From a virus, in the IMG/VR virus record IMGVR_UViG_3300031746_000043, positions 1 through 46,400 of that record: DNA of 46,400 bases; one strand, 5' to 3'. Below, piece by piece: positions 3,350-46,094 of the stretch (positions within the stretch are counted from its first letter, which is position 1; the number at the start of each line of letters is the position of its first letter). Made by a program: the position numbers and the translations under genes. Below the pieces are notes generated by a model. It worked only from the letters and a program-made list of their open reading frames with translations, searched no databases and was not told the origin of the DNA.

Positions 3350-3389
3350 TTGTTGCCTCCTTTCAATTATTATTTAATAAATATTAGTT

Positions 3390-3518
3390 TGGTTTGGATT
3401 GTTCTGGTTTGTTGTGTTCTAAACTATAATGTTTTACAATTTTGAATTGTAGTGTATTGGCTTGAGCTAAATTGTGGTGATTTGAGCTCTATGTTTTGCT
3501 ATGTTTTGCTCTATGATG
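3390..3518 (-). repeat. Period-5 array B: degenerate CANNN pentamers in sense orientation
   Basis: Written on the plus strand, T recurs every 5 bases, usually followed by G. TG is at 3390, 3395, 3400, 3405, 3410, 3415 and 3430, with TA at 3420, 3425 and 3435. After a shift the series is 3443, 3448, 3453, 3458, 3463, TA 3468, 3473, 3478, 3483. After a second shift it is 3492, 3497, 3502, 3507, TA 3512, 3517. Other bases vary. In the leftward transcript this is CANNN repeated. The last units overlap the 3' end of the C2H2 gene at 3489-3647. Confidence 0.85.
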
Positions 3519-3647
3519 TTTCTGCTGAGTATGGGTTTTCAAATTATATTCAACTTGACTTTCTGATGTCCCTTTAATCTCTCTCTTACAAATAGGGCAT
3601 CTCTTTTTATATTCTAATCTTTCAATTATTTTCTTTTTTGATTTCAT
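3489..3647 (-). CDS. C2H2-type zinc-finger mini-protein, 52 aa
   Basis: 52 aa. CPIC (residues 17-20) followed at zinc-finger spacing by HTQQKH gives a C2H2-like site, framed by basic residues (MKSKKKIIERLEYKKR at the start, RAKHSKT at the end). The start overlaps the stop of the membrane gene upstream by 4 bases (ATGA). Probably a nucleic-acid binder. Its last codons are built from the period-5 array. Confidence 0.65.
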   Translation of the reverse strand: MKSKKKIIERLEYKKRCPICKREIKGTSESQVEYNLKTHTQQKHHRAKHSKT

Positions 3648-3870: not shown

Positions 3871-3877
3871 ATGAGTC

Positions 3878-3998
3878 TGCACTGTTTTGCATTGTCCTGA
3901 TTTGCTTTGTCTTGTTATGAATGTCTTGCTTTGTTGTGTAATGGAATGGTTTGTTATGATGTGTTGTGAACAGTGCTATTCTGTAATTCTGTGTGTTG
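3878..3998 (-). repeat. Period-5 array A: 19 consecutive CANNN pentamers in sense orientation
   Basis: On the plus strand TG starts at 3878, 3883, 3888, 3893, 3898, 3903, 3908, 3913 and 3918. After one 4-base step it starts at 3922, 3927, 3932, 3937, 3942, 3947, 3952, 3957, 3962 and 3967, with further in-phase hits at 3982, 3992 and 3997. The three bases between the TGs vary (GCA, TTT, TCC and so on). The leftward transcript would read CANNN repeated, almost without stable structure. It fills the gap upstream of the 61-aa membrane gene. Confidence 0.9.
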
Positions 3999-4022
3999 AT
4001 AACTCATAGACTATTAGACTAT

Positions 4023-11612: not shown

Positions 11613-11725
11613 TTACTTGATTTGAAAATCACCTTTAAAGATAAACATTAAAATAAATATAAATTCTTTTATCGTCTATCAAATTTTAAGTGTTTTTCAC
11701 TTTGTTTATCTATTATCCTAAAAGA
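11613..11725 (-). promoter_or_regulatory. Promoter region of the recombinase operon
   Basis: 113 bases with an archaeal-style TATA element (sense TTTATATTTA, about 45 bases before the recombinase ATG) and a weak AGGTGA ribosome site. The 3' side follows the radical SAM gene's upstream neighbour without any larger feature. Confidence 0.4.
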
Positions 11726-12691
11726 TTAACTATTTATAGTTTTTGTTTCTATTCTTTCTAATTCCTTTTCAAAAAAAGGTTTATACCCTCTTAATCTTTC
11801 AGATTTTTCCATAACATCTTTAAGATTCATTTTAAAAGCACCCATCATATTACCCCAACAAGCAAGAGCAATAAATTCAGGTTTATCATATATCTTCCTA
11901 TCCCTCATAACATAAACTCCTTGCTTTTCATTTTGTAATAGTTTCATTCGTTTATAGACACTTTCAAAAGTATCTTTTTCTCCAACATAACAATACCAAC
12001 GAGTTCCCCAATCCTTTAATCCAGCTTCCTTTAGCATTTTAATTGCTTTAATAACTATTGGAGTATATGCAATATCATCAAAGGCAAATCTTATTTCTTG
12101 TTTATGTTTCAAAGAAAAAAGTATTTTGCATATTTCAGGAGTTAATAATCTAAAATCCAATCCTTGATTAAAGTCTACTATTAAATCATTATCTTTAATC
12201 TGTTGAGCAATCTTTTTAAAATGTTCAGGCACAGCAAGAATATTATTATCAAGAATAACTATCTCTTTATGTTTTTTATCCCAAAATTCATAAATATCAC
12301 AATTAATTCTTATTCTACCTTCGTGAGCTTGAACCTTACAGAAATAACAATTTCTAATACACCCTCTTGTTGTAAAACCAAGAGAGTAATCACATTTAAA
12401 AGTTTCATAATCAGGCATAAGGTGTTCTATTTCATCAGGCAACCTATTAGCATTAACTCCAATCCCCCCAATCTCAACATTCTTAAATTGTTTGGCAACT
12501 TTTAATGCAGTATCTTTATTCTTATCAAAAATACAGGATACATATACTTTATCAAAGGGAATAAGTCTTTGGGAGATTGTTTTATCTCTCATTAAATAAA
12601 CCTTATCCCTTTTATTCTTATGATACCTTGCAATTTTCATTAAAGCTAAGTTTGGCAAAGTTCCATCAATTTGTATTAATCCTATTTCCAT
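11726..12691 (-). CDS. Radical SAM enzyme (virus-type, function unknown)
   Basis: 321 aa from the ATG at 12691 (MEIGLIQIDGTLPNL). An N-terminal Rossmann-like region (1-95) precedes the radical SAM cluster motif CIRNCYFC (Cys111, Cys115, Cys118), followed by ILDNNIL and DFNQGLDFRLL as in related phage-borne enzymes. Such proteins bind a 4Fe-4S cluster and make a 5'-deoxyadenosyl radical. The substrate is unknown. It lies 42 bases after a ParB-like gene, a pairing I recall from other viruses. A nucleic-acid or tRNA modification role is inference. Confidence 0.85.
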   Translation of the reverse strand: MEIGLIQIDGTLPNLALMKIARYHKNKRDKVYLMRDKTISQRLIPFDKVYVSCIFDKNKDTALKVAKQFKNVEIGGIGVNANRLPDEIEHLMPDYETFKCDYSLGFTTRGCIRNCYFCKVQAHEGRIRINCDIYEFWDKKHKEIVILDNNILAVPEHFKKIAQQIKDNDLIVDFNQGLDFRLLTPEICKILFSLKHKQEIRFAFDDIAYTPIVIKAIKMLKEAGLKDWGTRWYCYVGEKDTFESVYKRMKLLQNEKQGVYVMRDRKIYDKPEFIALACWGNMMGAFKMNLKDVMEKSERLRGYKPFFEKELERIETKTINS

Positions 12692-15285: not shown

Positions 15286-15663
15286 TTATCCCTCTTTCCA
15301 ATTTAAATATAAAAGCACACTAATTATTAAAATTATTTCCACAACAACAAAAATAATCCAAAACAATTTATTATCTGTTTTAATAGGCGTTGGAATATTA
15401 ATATTATCTGTTGTATTATTTTCTATTATAGGACACACAGCAGTTTGATTTTTATAAATTATAAATCCCCCACCACCCACATAAGTTGGAGAACAAGTTG
15501 GCGTTGGCGTTGGCGTTTCATAATAATAACCATAAGAATATCCATAGCCATAACCATAACTTTCAGTTCCAACAAGAGTTCCATTAAATCCCGATACAAT
15601 TAATAAACATAATATTCCTATTGAAATTAATACCGGACCCAAAAAAGTTTGAAAATAACTCAT
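15286..15663 (-). CDS. Surface protein with Tyr-Gly and Thr-Pro repeats, 125 aa
   Basis: 125 aa with a membrane or signal segment at 7-26, then a low-complexity outer region: alternating Tyr-Gly (about 35-47), Thr-Pro repeats (about 50-57), a GGGG stretch and sequons, and a C-terminal membrane helix (about 100-120). It would display a short flexible ectodomain on the cell or virion. An AGGAG site lies upstream. No family recognised. Confidence 0.65.
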   Translation of the reverse strand: MSYFQTFLGPVLISIGILCLLIVSGFNGTLVGTESYGYGYGYSYGYYYETPTPTPTCSPTYVGGGGFIIYKNQTAVCPIIENNTTDNINIPTPIKTDNKLFWIIFVVVEIILIISVLLYLNWKEG

Positions 15664-16454
15664 TTTAAACTCCTATAACTTATAAATCTTTTTCTGCCCT
15701 CATCACTTTCAGTTAAATACTGAATACAAATCTCACAATAACCCTGCGTATCAATTAAATTCTTAACTATTTGTCCGTTATGCCCTGCAATCTGCAAACA
15801 ATTATTCTCGTCGTCTGTTGCTCTAATTCCAGCATTATTAATTGTATAAGCACTAACTTTTAAATAACCCTCTTGAAAAAACTTACATTTTAACCACGAC
15901 TTACTTCGCCGTCTTTCATAAAAAGAATTTATATCCTTAATTACAATACCCTCACCATTATTCTCTTTTGCTTTTATTAACATCTCTTTAATCTCCCCAA
16001 ATTCAGCAATTTTAATTAATTTAAATTGTAATGGTTTAATTAAATCACAAAGAATTTTATATCTCTCTTTTAATGGTTTCATTATTAAGTTTTCATCACC
16101 AATTTTTAAAATATCAAAAGCCATAAAATAACACTCAACTTTTGAACTATCAATTTTATCTTGTTTTGATAATCCAGCTCTTGTCTGCAAAGTATTAAAA
16201 TTTCCGTCAGAAGATATAATTTCGCCGTCAAGAACGCACTCGCAGAATAAAGATAATTCTTTTACTATCTCTTTAAATTTATTTGTAATATTATTAATAC
16301 TTCTATTTATTAAAATAACTTCGCCGTCGTAATCTACATAAGCCATACATCTCACCCCATCATATTTTTGCTGTGCTTTATACTTCTCGCAATTTAATTT
16401 TAATGCTTCAACTTTGGTTATGCTTTCACATAAAGCAAATATTTTTTCAACCAT
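15660..16454 (-). CDS. ATP-dependent DNA ligase (minimal, virus type)
   Basis: 264 aa. Seals DNA nicks through an enzyme-adenylate. Motif I KYDG (30-33, Lys30 nucleophile), NRS (50-52), LDGEI (75-79), FDIL (113-116), GEGIVIKD (167-174) and the lysine pair WLKCK (187-191) are present, followed by a short OB domain. There is no N-terminal DNA-binding domain, as in small viral ligases. The ATG at 16454 follows AGAGGAT. A 14-residue frame (MNKEEFEKWKED...) overlaps the upstream stop and may couple translation. It shares a region with a possible Ku-like gene. Confidence 0.9.
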   Translation of the reverse strand: MVEKIFALCESITKVEALKLNCEKYKAQQKYDGVRCMAYVDYDGEVILINRSINNITNKFKEIVKELSLFCECVLDGEIISSDGNFNTLQTRAGLSKQDKIDSSKVECYFMAFDILKIGDENLIMKPLKERYKILCDLIKPLQFKLIKIAEFGEIKEMLIKAKENNGEGIVIKDINSFYERRRSKSWLKCKFFQEGYLKVSAYTINNAGIRATDDENNCLQIAGHNGQIVKNLIDTQGYCEICIQYLTESDEGRKRFISYRSLK

Positions 16455-16496
16455 TTTATTTATTATCCTCTTTCCATTTTTCAAATTCTTCTTTGT

Positions 16497-17288: not shown

Positions 17289-17852
17289 TTATAAAACCAT
17301 TAATTGTTCTATACTCGCTTTTTCAATCCCCTGAATAGTTAGTGTTAAATGTTTAACCTTTTCTTTTTGTTTTTGTATTTCTTTAATGCTTAATATCTGT
17401 TCGCTTATTTTTGTAGTTCCAATATTCATAAATAACTCGTCGTATAATTCATTAACATAAATATAAGCAAAATACATTTTTTTTCCACCAAAAGACAAAC
17501 CGAATTTTAATGCTTTATTGCTGTCTTTTAATTCTTGTTTTAATCTATCACACTCAACATAATACATTTTAGGATTTAATAAATCCAAAACTTCGCTTTT
17601 ATCAACTTCTTTATATTTGTCTGTTTCTTTTGTTCGGCTAAATTTATCTAAAACCTGTCCGTTGATTAACATAAACGCTTTTTCTAAATGTTCGCCTGTC
17701 GCCTCATTAATAAAATAACCCTTTTCTAAATGCCCTGCAACCCAATTTAATGCGTTGCCGTCTTTATCAACAGCAGAATATTCTTGTGCGTTCTCTTTTA
17801 ACGGCGTGTATTTCAGCATAAAAGTTCCTATCCTCAAAGAATACATAGGCAT
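17289..17852 (-). CDS. Possible Ku-like DNA end-binding protein, 187 aa
   Basis: 187 aa. From residue 44 the order of features follows the Ku core: EKGYFINEATGEHLEKAF (Ku KGYE..G..V), then KEVDKSEVLDLLNPKMYYVE (Ku FV...ID....YYL.P), then a strand-rich stretch KALKFGLSFGGKKMYFAYI. The N-terminal MPMYSLRIGTFMLKYTPLK could mirror Ku GLV.vPVkly. This is a visual match at low identity and could be chance. It is strengthened a little by an ATP-dependent ligase two genes downstream. If correct, it would bridge broken DNA ends as a homodimer. Confidence 0.4.
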   Translation of the reverse strand: MPMYSLRIGTFMLKYTPLKENAQEYSAVDKDGNALNWVAGHLEKGYFINEATGEHLEKAFMLINGQVLDKFSRTKETDKYKEVDKSEVLDLLNPKMYYVECDRLKQELKDSNKALKFGLSFGGKKMYFAYIYVNELYDELFMNIGTTKISEQILSIKEIQKQKEKVKHLTLTIQGIEKASIEQLMVL

Positions 17853-19817: not shown

Positions 19818-20108
19818 TTAGTTTAAATCCTCGTCGGTTAAATATTGTATTTGTTTTAAGTGACTTCCTTTAGCCAGATTGTCACTATTTTCTCTTGATG
19901 TTTCTTTGTCTATATTAATAATTTCTGCTATTATGGTTTTATTCTCAAAATGTACTTCTATTAATCCATTTTCTTTATTATACCATAAAGTAGGTAAGTT
20001 TTTTAATTTTCTAATCTCCCTTAATAATCTTATTTGTTTTTTATATTCTGCTGTAACTTCTTTTAGTTTAAGCATTACTTTATTGTGTTCGTTTGTTTGT
20101 GTTTTCAT
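19818..20108 (-). CDS. Hypothetical protein, 96 aa
   Basis: 96 aa, N-terminal helix pair (LKEVTAEYKKQIRLLREIRK) then a small beta sheet (GLIEVHFENKTIIAEIINID). Its start MKTQTN and flanking bases repeat those of the ArdC-like gene, so a duplicated initiation cassette may have been copied between the two. No family recognised. Confidence 0.6.
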   Translation of the reverse strand: MKTQTNEHNKVMLKLKEVTAEYKKQIRLLREIRKLKNLPTLWYNKENGLIEVHFENKTIIAEIINIDKETSRENSDNLAKGSHLKQIQYLTDEDLN

Positions 20109-20305
20109 TTTAAAATTTTTATGCGTTTAAATCCAAATTCTAATTCTTTTAAAAAGTTATTTAACTCCATTAATCTTTTGGGTGTTGTTATGCTTTGGCT
20201 TTTACTATCTGCAAGTGTTCTCAATATGCCTCTTATTTCTAAAAGTGCATTACTTATTTCTGTTGTGTTTGTTCTGTTCTGTTTATCGTCTGTTAATTGT
20301 TTCAT
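20105..20305 (-). CDS. Small protein at the head of the SD-less operon, 66 aa
   Basis: 66 aa from the ATG at 20305 (MKQLTDDKQNRTNTTE). I reject the longer frame to 20353 because the TATA box lies inside it: TATATAAA at 20328-20335 is about 26 bases before this ATG, so the transcript would be leaderless. Helical, with a basic C-terminus (FGFKRIKILK). No family recognised. Confidence 0.6.
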   Translation of the reverse strand: MKQLTDDKQNRTNTTEISNALLEIRGILRTLADSKSQSITTPKRLMELNNFLKELEFGFKRIKILK

Positions 20306-20327
20306 AGATGAAACACGAAAACACCCT

Positions 20328-20335
20328 TTATATAC
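20328..20335 (-). promoter_or_regulatory. TATA box of the 20.3-16.5 kb operon
   Basis: Sense strand GTATATAAAGGG, a near-ideal archaeal TATA element about 26 bases upstream of the first ATG. It should drive the block containing the ArdC-like, Ku-like and SWIM genes. Confidence 0.65.
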
Positions 20336-20409
20336 TTTTCTATATTCAAGCATATAGGTTTGTTTATCTTTTATGTTAATAGATAAACTTTTCTTTATTA
20401 TCTCCCTAT

Positions 20410-20528
20410 TGATTTGTTATGATGTGTTTATCTTTAACTATGGTTTTGTTCGTGCTGTGCTGTCAGGTCTTGTGCTGTGCTGTCAGTCTTGTGCTGTGCT
20501 GTCAGTCTTGTGCTGTGCTGTGATACTG
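20410..20528 (-). repeat. Period-5 array D with 19-bp tandem repeats
   Basis: Four near-identical units (20452-20471, 20472-20490, 20491-20509, partial from 20510) whose plus-strand core is GTGCTGTGCTGTCAGTCTT. Inside each unit a T again recurs every 5 bases (20453, 20458, 20463, 20468, 20473, 20478, 20483). The run is preceded by in-phase TGs at 20410, 20415, 20420 and 20425. In sense orientation this is CANNN again (CACAG, CACAA, CAGCA). It is followed by a run of Ts and an AT-rich stretch, which also suits an iteron-type origin. Confidence 0.8.
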
Positions 20529-20821
20529 TGATTTTTTTTACTTTGCTAAATGAATTATTTAAAGCCACATCTGTTATCCTATTTTGATTTTTTCCTGCAA
20601 TTTTTTATTCTTTGAACTGCCACCCTGACAGAGTATTCGTTCTGGGCTTGTGGGCTTGTAATTAATTATACTTTGCCCTGCCCCGACGCGCAGAGTATTC
20701 ATTTCCAAAGGTTCTGGGCCTGCTTTGCTGAGAAAACCGCGCAAAATATACATATATTAATGTTACACCTGTCCAATAGATAAAAATAAGTTAAAATTAC
20801 TACTGCTTTCTTTAAAAATAT

Positions 20822-20846
20822 CGGTTTTCTTAGAGAAAAACCATAT
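20822..20846 (-). terminator. Hairpin terminator after the P-loop ATPase
   Basis: In sense orientation GGTTTTTCT, a 3-base loop, then AGAAAACC with one bulge, followed by ATATTTTTAAAG. It lies about 10 bases past the ATPase stop codon, so it probably ends that operon. Confidence 0.5.
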
Positions 20847-20855
20847 TTTTATAGG

Positions 20856-23201: not shown

Positions 23202-23225
23202 TTTGTTCCTCCATTATAATTTTAT

Positions 23226-23295
23226 CCGTACCATACCGCACCTCACCATACCTTACCGCACCTTACCATACCCCACCTTACCATACCTCACCTCA
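23226..23295 (-). repeat. Period-5 array C: fourteen TRNGG pentamers (sense strand)
   Basis: On the plus strand the sequence is exactly 14 consecutive CCNYA pentamers (CCGTA, CCATA, CCGCA, CCTCA, CCATA, CCTTA, CCGCA, CCTTA, CCATA, CCCCA, CCTTA, CCATA, CCTCA, CCTCA). The sense strand is therefore GG every five bases with a varying middle. The repeated GG pairs could form two-layer G-quadruplexes in mRNA or ssDNA. It lies 25-94 bases upstream of the ATG at 23201. Confidence 0.95.
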
Positions 23296-23329: not shown

Positions 23330-23890
23330 TTATTTCTTTTTTTCAGTCCAGTTGATTACTTGGAATTTTCCGAATCTTCCACGCTTTGCAGGTCTCCAAT
23401 CTCCTACACCTACATTTCTTCCAGCTATGTCAAATAGTTCTTTCATTACTGGAACTTCAATTTGGCTTTCATCAAAAGTGCATTCAAATTCAACTTTCCA
23501 TTTATCAAATTGTGGTCTGTGCAAAACATTTCTTCCGTGTGTTGTTGGATTAACTGCAAGTATAGAAAAGACTTTCCATTTTTCTTTTAATACAATTTCA
23601 AATGGATTTATCTCTACACTTGAACCAGCAACTTTTGAATAGGTAGCTTTTGCACTTCCCTTACCCATCATCTTCTTTTGCTTTCCAGCTTCAACTATTG
23701 CTCCTTGAAACCAAGTTGCAGGAAGATATACTTTTCCTGTTGCATCTGAATAAAGTTTGCATTCAGCAAGCTCTATTGGTGTCATAGTTTCTCTTTTACT
23801 ATCCTTTGACTTTTCTCCAATATCTAACTGACTTGGTCTATTCATAAGTAATGGACTTATTCCTTCTATTGTTATGTTATATGTTTTCAT
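23330..23890 (-). CDS. Conserved phage/archaeal-virus hypothetical protein, 186 aa
   Basis: 186 aa with a GGAGG site. Landmarks: ITIEGISPLLMNRPSQLD, YLPATWFQGAIVEAGKQKK, FSILAVNPTTHGRNVLHRP and AGRNVGVGDWRPAKRGRFG. I recall this combination from uncharacterised phage proteins near replication genes. The beta-rich start plus the glycine-rich GVGDxRP loop is reminiscent of RAMP/Cas7-like RNA-binding folds, but that is speculative. Confidence 0.7.
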   Translation of the reverse strand: MKTYNITIEGISPLLMNRPSQLDIGEKSKDSKRETMTPIELAECKLYSDATGKVYLPATWFQGAIVEAGKQKKMMGKGSAKATYSKVAGSSVEINPFEIVLKEKWKVFSILAVNPTTHGRNVLHRPQFDKWKVEFECTFDESQIEVPVMKELFDIAGRNVGVGDWRPAKRGRFGKFQVINWTEKKK

Positions 23891-44840: not shown

Positions 44841-44901
44841 ATCACACTTCTTCTTTCATATTGGGTGAACTACTCATAACCTAACTCCTGTTGAGGTTAT
44901 G
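44841..44901 (-). mobile_element. Right end / guide-RNA 3' region of the IS200/IS605-type element
   Basis: The TnpB tail codons and the following bases form a stem (CATAACCT 44875-44882 with AGGTTATG 44894-44901) and, in sense, run on to GAGTAGTTCACCC. Archaeal TnpB genes of this kind overlap the right end and the omega-RNA scaffold at this position. The left end is not recognisable, and the gene start is coupled to a zinc mini-gene. Confidence 0.5.
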
Positions 44902-46094
44902 GCTTCTTGCTTCATAGACAACCCTTGCTCAATCTGAGTAGAGGAGTTATTCTCCACATTGGCTCGTTCCGAACCAATAAATTTAGTTTTTATGTTTATT
45001 GCAGAGTTTAGGTCTCTGTCTATCTCAAACCCACAACTTGAACATTTGTATGTTCTTATCCACAATGGCATCTTTTGAAGATTTCCACAGTTGCTACATT
45101 GTTTTGTTGTGTTCTTGGGGTCAATTTTTACAATCTTACAACCAGCGTTTTCAGCTTTTTGTTTCCATACCTTTGTATTAATATTTAATTGTTCTTCTGA
45201 ATAAATAGAATAAAAAATATTATGTTGTAAGCAATATTCTTCTAATTTTTTAATTTTTTCATTGTTGAATTTGATTAATTTTAAAGGTTTAACTTCAATT
45301 ATTTCTTTATCACCATTGATATATTCAATTTCAAAATCTGGAATGTATCTTTTAATTTTGTTATTTTTAATATATTCTAATATAATATTACATCTATCAA
45401 ATTTTAATACATTTGCATTTAATTCTAAAATTTCTAAACATCTTTGTTCATAAAAGCTTTGATAATAAATAGATTTGTTATTTTTATCAGACCAAAAATG
45501 TCCTCTATATTTAGAATTACCATTAAATAATTTTCCAGATGCAATATATTCAGAAGTTTGTTTACTTTTTAAAATTGAAAGATTGTCTTTTGTTTCTTGT
45601 GTATGTGTTTTTCCTGACATACCTTTTGAAAAAGAACCAACATATTTCATAAATTTACTATCTCTATGTTTTCCCAACCAATAATTAGTTGGATTAATTA
45701 ATTTTGCTTCTTTCATTTTTTCTCTCACTTCCAATCTTTTTGAAACATTATTTTCTCCTAATTGTCTTTTTGATAATCTCTTCTTAAATTCTTCAGTATG
45801 TTTAGGATGATTATGTCCATTAATATATTTGTTACCTTTTTTAACTTCTTTTCCACAACCACATAAACATAGTCTTTGGTTTTCCATCTGTAAAACTTTA
45901 GAATGAATATTATTCATTTCAGGAAAAACAACTTTCAAATCCAATAAATAGTTTTGTAATTCATTTTTTGTAAATCTTTCATCAAGTCCTGATAGCAAAT
46001 GATTATAAGTTTGTCTGCAAATATCAAGAGCAAAGTCTAACTTTTCTCTTACTGGCTTATTTGGATACATTCTGAATTTATATGTGAGGGTCAT
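44874..46094 (-). CDS. tnpB: Chimeric TnpB with inserted homing endonuclease
   Basis: 406 aa. Residues 1-75 are a normal TnpB start (MTLTYKFRMYPNKPVREKL, IHSKVLQMENQRL). Residues 309-406 are a normal TnpB end: YKAENAGxK-type helix, IDPKNTTKQCSNCG and CSSCGFEIDRDLNSAINI (zinc finger and RuvC-III Asp), then the SMKQEA tail that runs into the right end. RuvC-I and RuvC-II are missing. In their place (76-308) are CLCGCGKEVKKGNKYINGHN, NUMOD3-like repeats, and a PD-(D/E)XK-like core (Glu216, PDFEIEY 252-258, EVK 267-269). Not a functional RuvC nuclease as written. Confidence 0.88.
   Translation of the reverse strand: MTLTYKFRMYPNKPVREKLDFALDICRQTYNHLLSGLDERFTKNELQNYLLDLKVVFPEMNNIHSKVLQMENQRLCLCGCGKEVKKGNKYINGHNHPKHTEEFKKRLSKRQLGENNVSKRLEVREKMKEAKLINPTNYWLGKHRDSKFMKYVGSFSKGMSGKTHTQETKDNLSILKSKQTSEYIASGKLFNGNSKYRGHFWSDKNNKSIYYQSFYEQRCLEILELNANVLKFDRCNIILEYIKNNKIKRYIPDFEIEYINGDKEIIEVKPLKLIKFNNEKIKKLEEYCLQHNIFYSIYSEEQLNINTKVWKQKAENAGCKIVKIDPKNTTKQCSNCGNLQKMPLWIRTYKCSSCGFEIDRDLNSAINIKTKFIGSERANVENNSSTQIEQGLSMKQEAITSTGVRL

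Follow-up and report, generated by a model that had tools for sequence, protein, structure and literature searches.

A 19-bp tandem repeat with inner 5-nt steps in a virus carrying a VIPR locus: a possible orphan guide array expanded by block duplication

What is the block of short repeats that lies beside the end of an ATPase-like gene (20856) in this viral DNA, and what might it do? It forms the tandem repeat with the top TRF score (131) in the window, that is, the whole stretch of 46,400 nt that was analysed. A preliminary description had called it array D, four 19-bp repeats built of 5-bp steps, and had considered its position suited to both operator and origin functions. The 19-bp repeat is confirmed: TRF returns 3.6 copies with 98% matches, and ungapped copies start at 20447, 20467, 20486 and 20505, with spacings of 20, 19 and 19.

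20452-20521, minus strand: array D core, 3.6 copies of the 19-bp unit (TRF, ungapped copies and CA-spacing test)
20408-20523, minus strand: full period-5 ACA/NN extent of array D, including a degenerate 3' part (ACANN and CACNN scans)

On the minus strand, which also carries the neighbouring genes, the unit reads ACAGC ACAGC ACAAG AC(C)TG, or four pentamers, one of which is short by 1 base in two copies; one copy measures 20 bp. The 5-bp steps are likewise borne out, with 15 CA-to-CA pairs at distance 5 against 6.1 in shuffles (P<0.002), and 9 against 3.5 (P=0.001) after the tandem has been reduced to a single copy. Because the enrichment survives this collapse, the period of 5 is not merely a by-product of the 19-bp repeat. 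The phase is poorly kept past one step, with no clear excess of CA pairs at distance 10 or 15. The scans weakly favour the further claim that the same phase extends upstream of the repeats, the pentamer phase reaching approximately 20408-20523 (ACANN, 23 steps) when phase shifts are allowed.

When the whole window was scanned for any triplet recurring every 5 nt, and compared with shuffled windows, only four arrays emerged: B (81 bits), A1 (67), D (55, as CACNN at 20450-20522) and A2 (43), the best of each of twelve shuffled windows scoring 22-30. The preliminary description had seen a free NNN in arrays A and B, and a fixed triplet followed by a free NN describes them better. Array A1 shows such a fixed triplet with hypervariable NN (67 bits against a null maximum of 30); it consists of two runs that share one phase and are offset from each other by 49 nt (5x10-1), and 21 of its 25 pentamers are distinct. 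On the minus strand, array D can be read as CAC/NN or as ACA/NN, and because its diversity is low and its core nearly invariant, triplet and NN are inseparable there in either register.

3875-3999, minus strand: array A1, about 25 ACA/NN (CANNN) pentamers (triplet scan)
3387-3519, minus strand: array A2, about 27 weaker ACA/NN pentamers (triplet scan, 43 bits)
20413-20428, identical to 3950-3965: 16-bp segment TTTGTTATGATGTGTT, an exact match between arrays D and A1

This exact 16-bp segment links array D to array A, in line with the preliminary description; the longest share with 275 random segments was 11 bp. Arrays A1, A2 and, probably, D would form one class, ACA/NN on the minus strand, distinct from B. 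The exact array D repeat is absent from the viral contigs searched and its unit from all other fetched loci; the region has no DNA match among annotated phage records and no Rfam match, and an early literature search on pentanucleotide phage repeats gave nothing of use.

The geometry of these arrays has a counterpart in array B, which begins about 35 nt past the stop codon of a small gene on the same strand.

23330-23890, minus strand: Vipr gene, 186 aa, phrog_4652, RAMP fold (profile and predicted model)
23223-23295, minus strand: array B, 14 GGT/NN pentamers, VIPR-type guide array (vrRNA), 81 bits

VIPR (Viral Interference Programmable Repeat), as set out in a 2026 preprint (PMC13142463), is an RNA-guided system that represses rival phages. 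Its small RAMP protein, Vipr, associates with vrRNAs made up of 9-16 GGY/NN repeats, and the NN dinucleotides base-pair with double-stranded DNA, one base being skipped each time; some VIPR types use 'a related consensus', according to the same preprint. A profile of 80 homologs of the gene product matches 36pp_D, 'SUSP1 Vipr protein' (PDB 36pp), at E 4.7e-43, and the window's protein alone matches SUSP1 Vipr at E 2.9e-8. Its predicted model (pLDDT 94) matches the RAMP proteins Csm3 and Cas7 with Z of about 12. Because protein family, fold, GGY/NN repeat (14 GGT/NN units, within the 9-16 range), strand and position all fit VIPR, array B and the 23330-23890 gene are, judged by sequence and predicted structure, a VIPR locus of an already-known kind. 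The Vipr match of the neighbouring protein led us to set aside two earlier candidates for the cause of the period: RNA binding of the TRAP-like (NAG+2) kind, and single-strand annealing proteins that have 5-nt footprints.

In a relative with a 66%-identical primase (L010), 13 GGC/NN pentamers directly follow the homolog of the 23330-23890 gene, and the Vipr of the window groups with that of L010 among the GGY Viprs in the Vipr tree. The vrRNAs of VIPR systems bear a structured 3' tail. In the window, the next ATG follows array B after only some 21 nt, and no stem is evident there by eye; L010 has a GGCGG/CCGCC stem at that place. Under the 1-nt skip rule, the best target match of array B in 2.4 Mb of loci was 23/28, which is marginal against a null of up to 22, and natural targets of the A1 and L010 arrays did not rise above null in the same loci. 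Target scans of sequence collections with B, A1 and the L010 arrays gave chance-like matches to part of the pattern, without extension. No second Vipr was found in the window by profile, RCA-clade profile or profile-profile search; the only one is of GGY type, has its own array and lies 2.8 kb from array D.

How closely are pentamer arrays and Vipr genes associated elsewhere? Viral contigs scanned for runs of ten GGY/NN units yielded at least 120 stretches. Although these loci were picked by DNA pattern alone, a profile built from three proteins found a Vipr homolog in 82 of the 120 matches listed, on the strand of the array in every such locus, and an iterated profile raised this to 86 of the 120 listed. 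Heterogeneous arrays (GGY or TG type) adjoin a Vipr gene in 114 of 165 loci and homogeneous arrays in none of 72 (P=1.5e-27), so that pentamer geometry is diagnostic when the pentamers are diverse. All five annotated phages examined have pentamer arrays adjoining a Vipr gene. Heterogeneous pentamer arrays also occur near a RecT-like gene in three loci (L066, L188 and L234), with no Vipr detected in the fetched stretch.

Each of 121 Vipr loci has one array class (GGC or GGT, CAC, GCA or ACA, TGT) on the strand of the gene, and the array may be on either side of it. The non-GGY triplets are CAC (12 loci), GCA (11), ACA (3) and TGT (3), with examples in L141, L153, L143 and L151; these classes may already be covered by fig. 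S17 of PMC13142463, on related consensus repeats. Array class follows the Vipr tree, with 7 changes against a shuffled mean of 27, and so a contact between protein and triplet (GGY, CAC, RCA, TGT) could be tested by swapping. Whole-locus scans (1.08 Mb) found no second guide-like class at another Vipr locus, three flagged exceptions being a register variant, a CTG array resembling a pentapeptide-repeat sequence and a GAC tandem that is almost homogeneous, and none was found in three complete phage genomes. The window is therefore unusual in combining a GGT/NN array (B) with ACA/NN arrays (A1, A2 and probably D). Arrays A1 and A2 are heterogeneous and resemble the ACA/NN arrays that adjoin Vipr genes in L151, L156 and L192. 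More broadly, A and D share triplet class and strand relation with the RCA/NN arrays of L151, L156, L192, L141, L258 and others, but those arrays adjoin a Vipr gene and A and D do not. Phage phiHSIC is another example of a virus with a Vipr of the RCA class.

Two features of Vipr-linked arrays bear directly on how array D may have grown. Phase breaks are mostly of -1 (108 of 171 in GGY loci, 12 of 12 in CAC loci and 7 of 9 in RCA loci), and over the 121 Vipr loci this predominance suggests a fixed junction between successive vrRNAs. In addition, exact repeats of at least 15 nt within an array, which mark block duplications, occur in 62 of the 121 loci, in agreement with the suggestion in the preliminary description that arrays grow by duplicating several pentamers at once. 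Array D is linked to this grammar because 19 = 4x5-1, and -1 is the main phase break in Vipr-linked arrays; the 49-nt step of A1 is also a -1 step. Arrays D and A thus resemble a VIPR system in their triplet-plus-NN geometry and -1 slip, but ACA replaces GGY and the partner Vipr is absent from the window.

A competing account, which we consider unlikely though far from negligible, is that array D is no more than a minisatellite in which replication slippage has multiplied a 19-bp unit, unrelated to guide arrays and with an accidental inner 5-nt pattern (GTGCT occurs twice in the unit). The low diversity of D fits this account: the 19-bp core holds about three distinct pentamers only, as in homogeneous arrays, whereas Vipr-linked stretches of 15 pentamers never hold fewer than seven. 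Pure (TGTGC)n arrays with the same dominant pentamer occur in other viruses (L146, L206) without Vipr, homogeneous arrays never adjoin a Vipr gene, and the absence of the unit from the other fetched loci points the same way. However, slippage alone would leave three observations aside, namely the period-5 signal that persists after tandem collapse, the 16 bp held in common with A1, and the -1 slip as in Vipr-linked arrays. Unlike the (TGTGC)n microsatellites, array D is also a higher-order repeat, of 19/20 bp, and it has a degenerate period-5 flank that is related to A1.

The surroundings of array D bear on the roles first suggested for it, and contain several recognizable elements.

20810-20854: imperfect 21-nt inverted repeat, 3' of the ATPase-like gene
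20556-20563, minus strand: TATA-like TTTAAATA, about 35 nt ahead of array D, a candidate promoter
20362-20388: hairpin after array D, with 12-nt arms that are 92% complementary; resembles the sequence at 11701-11734

The array had been placed between the terminator of a packaging ATPase and the TATA box of an early operon. The end of the ATPase-like gene and the inverted repeat are there, as is a TATA-like TTTATATA at 20327-20334 (TATATAAA on the minus strand), about 25 nt before the ATG at 20305. A simple bacterial-type scan found no terminator. Matches of the TTTAAATA type number 25 in the window against 19.5 expected, such boxes being common in this AT-rich genome. The palindromic hairpin sequence is common to two intergenic sites, 11701-11734 and 20359-20393, and is possibly a terminator or processing element. 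A TATA-like box before the array and a hairpin after it would be compatible with transcription. A short period-5 stretch (ACAGA ACAGA ACAAA, minus strand) also occurs at 20258-20284, inside the start of the 20105-20353 reading frame.

Neither operator nor origin function is supported, since nothing positive beyond position speaks for them, and the better-attested arrays of this geometry (B, and more than 100 elsewhere) are VIPR guide arrays that sit beside a Vipr gene on a fixed strand. As an operator array, D would be bound by a putative protein that regulates the operon beginning at 20305. Its placement about 75-190 bp upstream of the TATA-like box would suit this, but the related arrays A1 and A2 are located elsewhere and in Vipr loci such arrays are found on either side of the gene, which makes the proposal very doubtful. 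Iteron plasmid origins consist of direct repeats, about 19 bp long and close to AT-rich DNA, and array D, with approximately four 19-bp direct repeats next to a T-rich stretch, has a similar outline and could in principle be bound by an initiator. It differs from them in its inner 5-nt structure and in having neither a recognized initiator (no Rep-type protein among the proteins tested) nor conservation seen, and there is no GC-skew switch at its position. In the nearest relative, the corresponding CA-rich stretch holds no significant array of period 5 (P=0.42), unlike what would be predicted for an essential origin, and we regard an iteron-type origin as highly improbable. Taken over the whole intergenic region of that relative, the period is weak (P=0.012).

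An archaeal host is plausible for this virus from its TATA-type promoters and small membrane coat-like proteins. A 187-aa protein (17289-17852, minus strand) looks Ku-like by eye, has no family match, and is encoded near an ATP-dependent DNA ligase gene (15660-16484, minus strand); both genes are conserved in another locus, L009. A TnpB-like (IS605 OrfB) protein encoded at 44874-46094 (minus strand) has NUMOD3 and TnsA-like endonuclease domains as insertions.

Our tentative reading is that array D is an orphan of the VIPR type that grew by block duplication and has probably decayed, any guide role being putative; we favour this account, while giving it slightly less than an even chance. Arrays D, A1 and A2 would belong to the same ACA/NN class, matching in geometry the vrRNA genes of VIPR systems whose Vipr uses RCA/NN rather than GGY/NN. 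In D, a four-pentamer block would have been duplicated head to tail, producing the tandem 19-bp units and the -1 slip that is typical of such arrays. A minus-strand transcript may still be possible, running from the TATA-like box (20556-20563) to the hairpin (20362-20388), although a recognizable partner protein is absent from the window. The period beyond the tandem, the segment held in common with A1, the -1 slip statistics and the VIPR locus at B are observations, whereas we infer a VIPR-type origin for A as well as D, and the transcription and decay of D. A working guide is harder to reconcile with the paucity of distinct pentamers, with blocks of 4 pentamers against 9-16 per vrRNA, with the failure to find a matching Vipr and with the lack of a significant array at this place in the nearest relative; the VIPR reading as a whole must also face the 0/72 result for homogeneous arrays and the GGY type of the sole Vipr in the window.

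Solitary CRISPR repeats act as RNA decoys against Cas proteins, and a comparable role can be imagined here. The virus would then maintain two incompatible guide classes: one, GGT/NN, would work with its own Vipr, and the other, the orphan arrays of ACA/NN type (A1, A2 and D), would serve the Vipr of another element or decoy that of a rival, with D a low-complexity decoy derived by block duplication. We consider this elaboration improbable.

The analysis assigns a VIPR locus to this virus and links otherwise unexplained pentamer repeats to VIPR. If a single Vipr is really paired with arrays of a different class, this would point to guide sharing between elements or to RNA-based counter-defence against VIPR.
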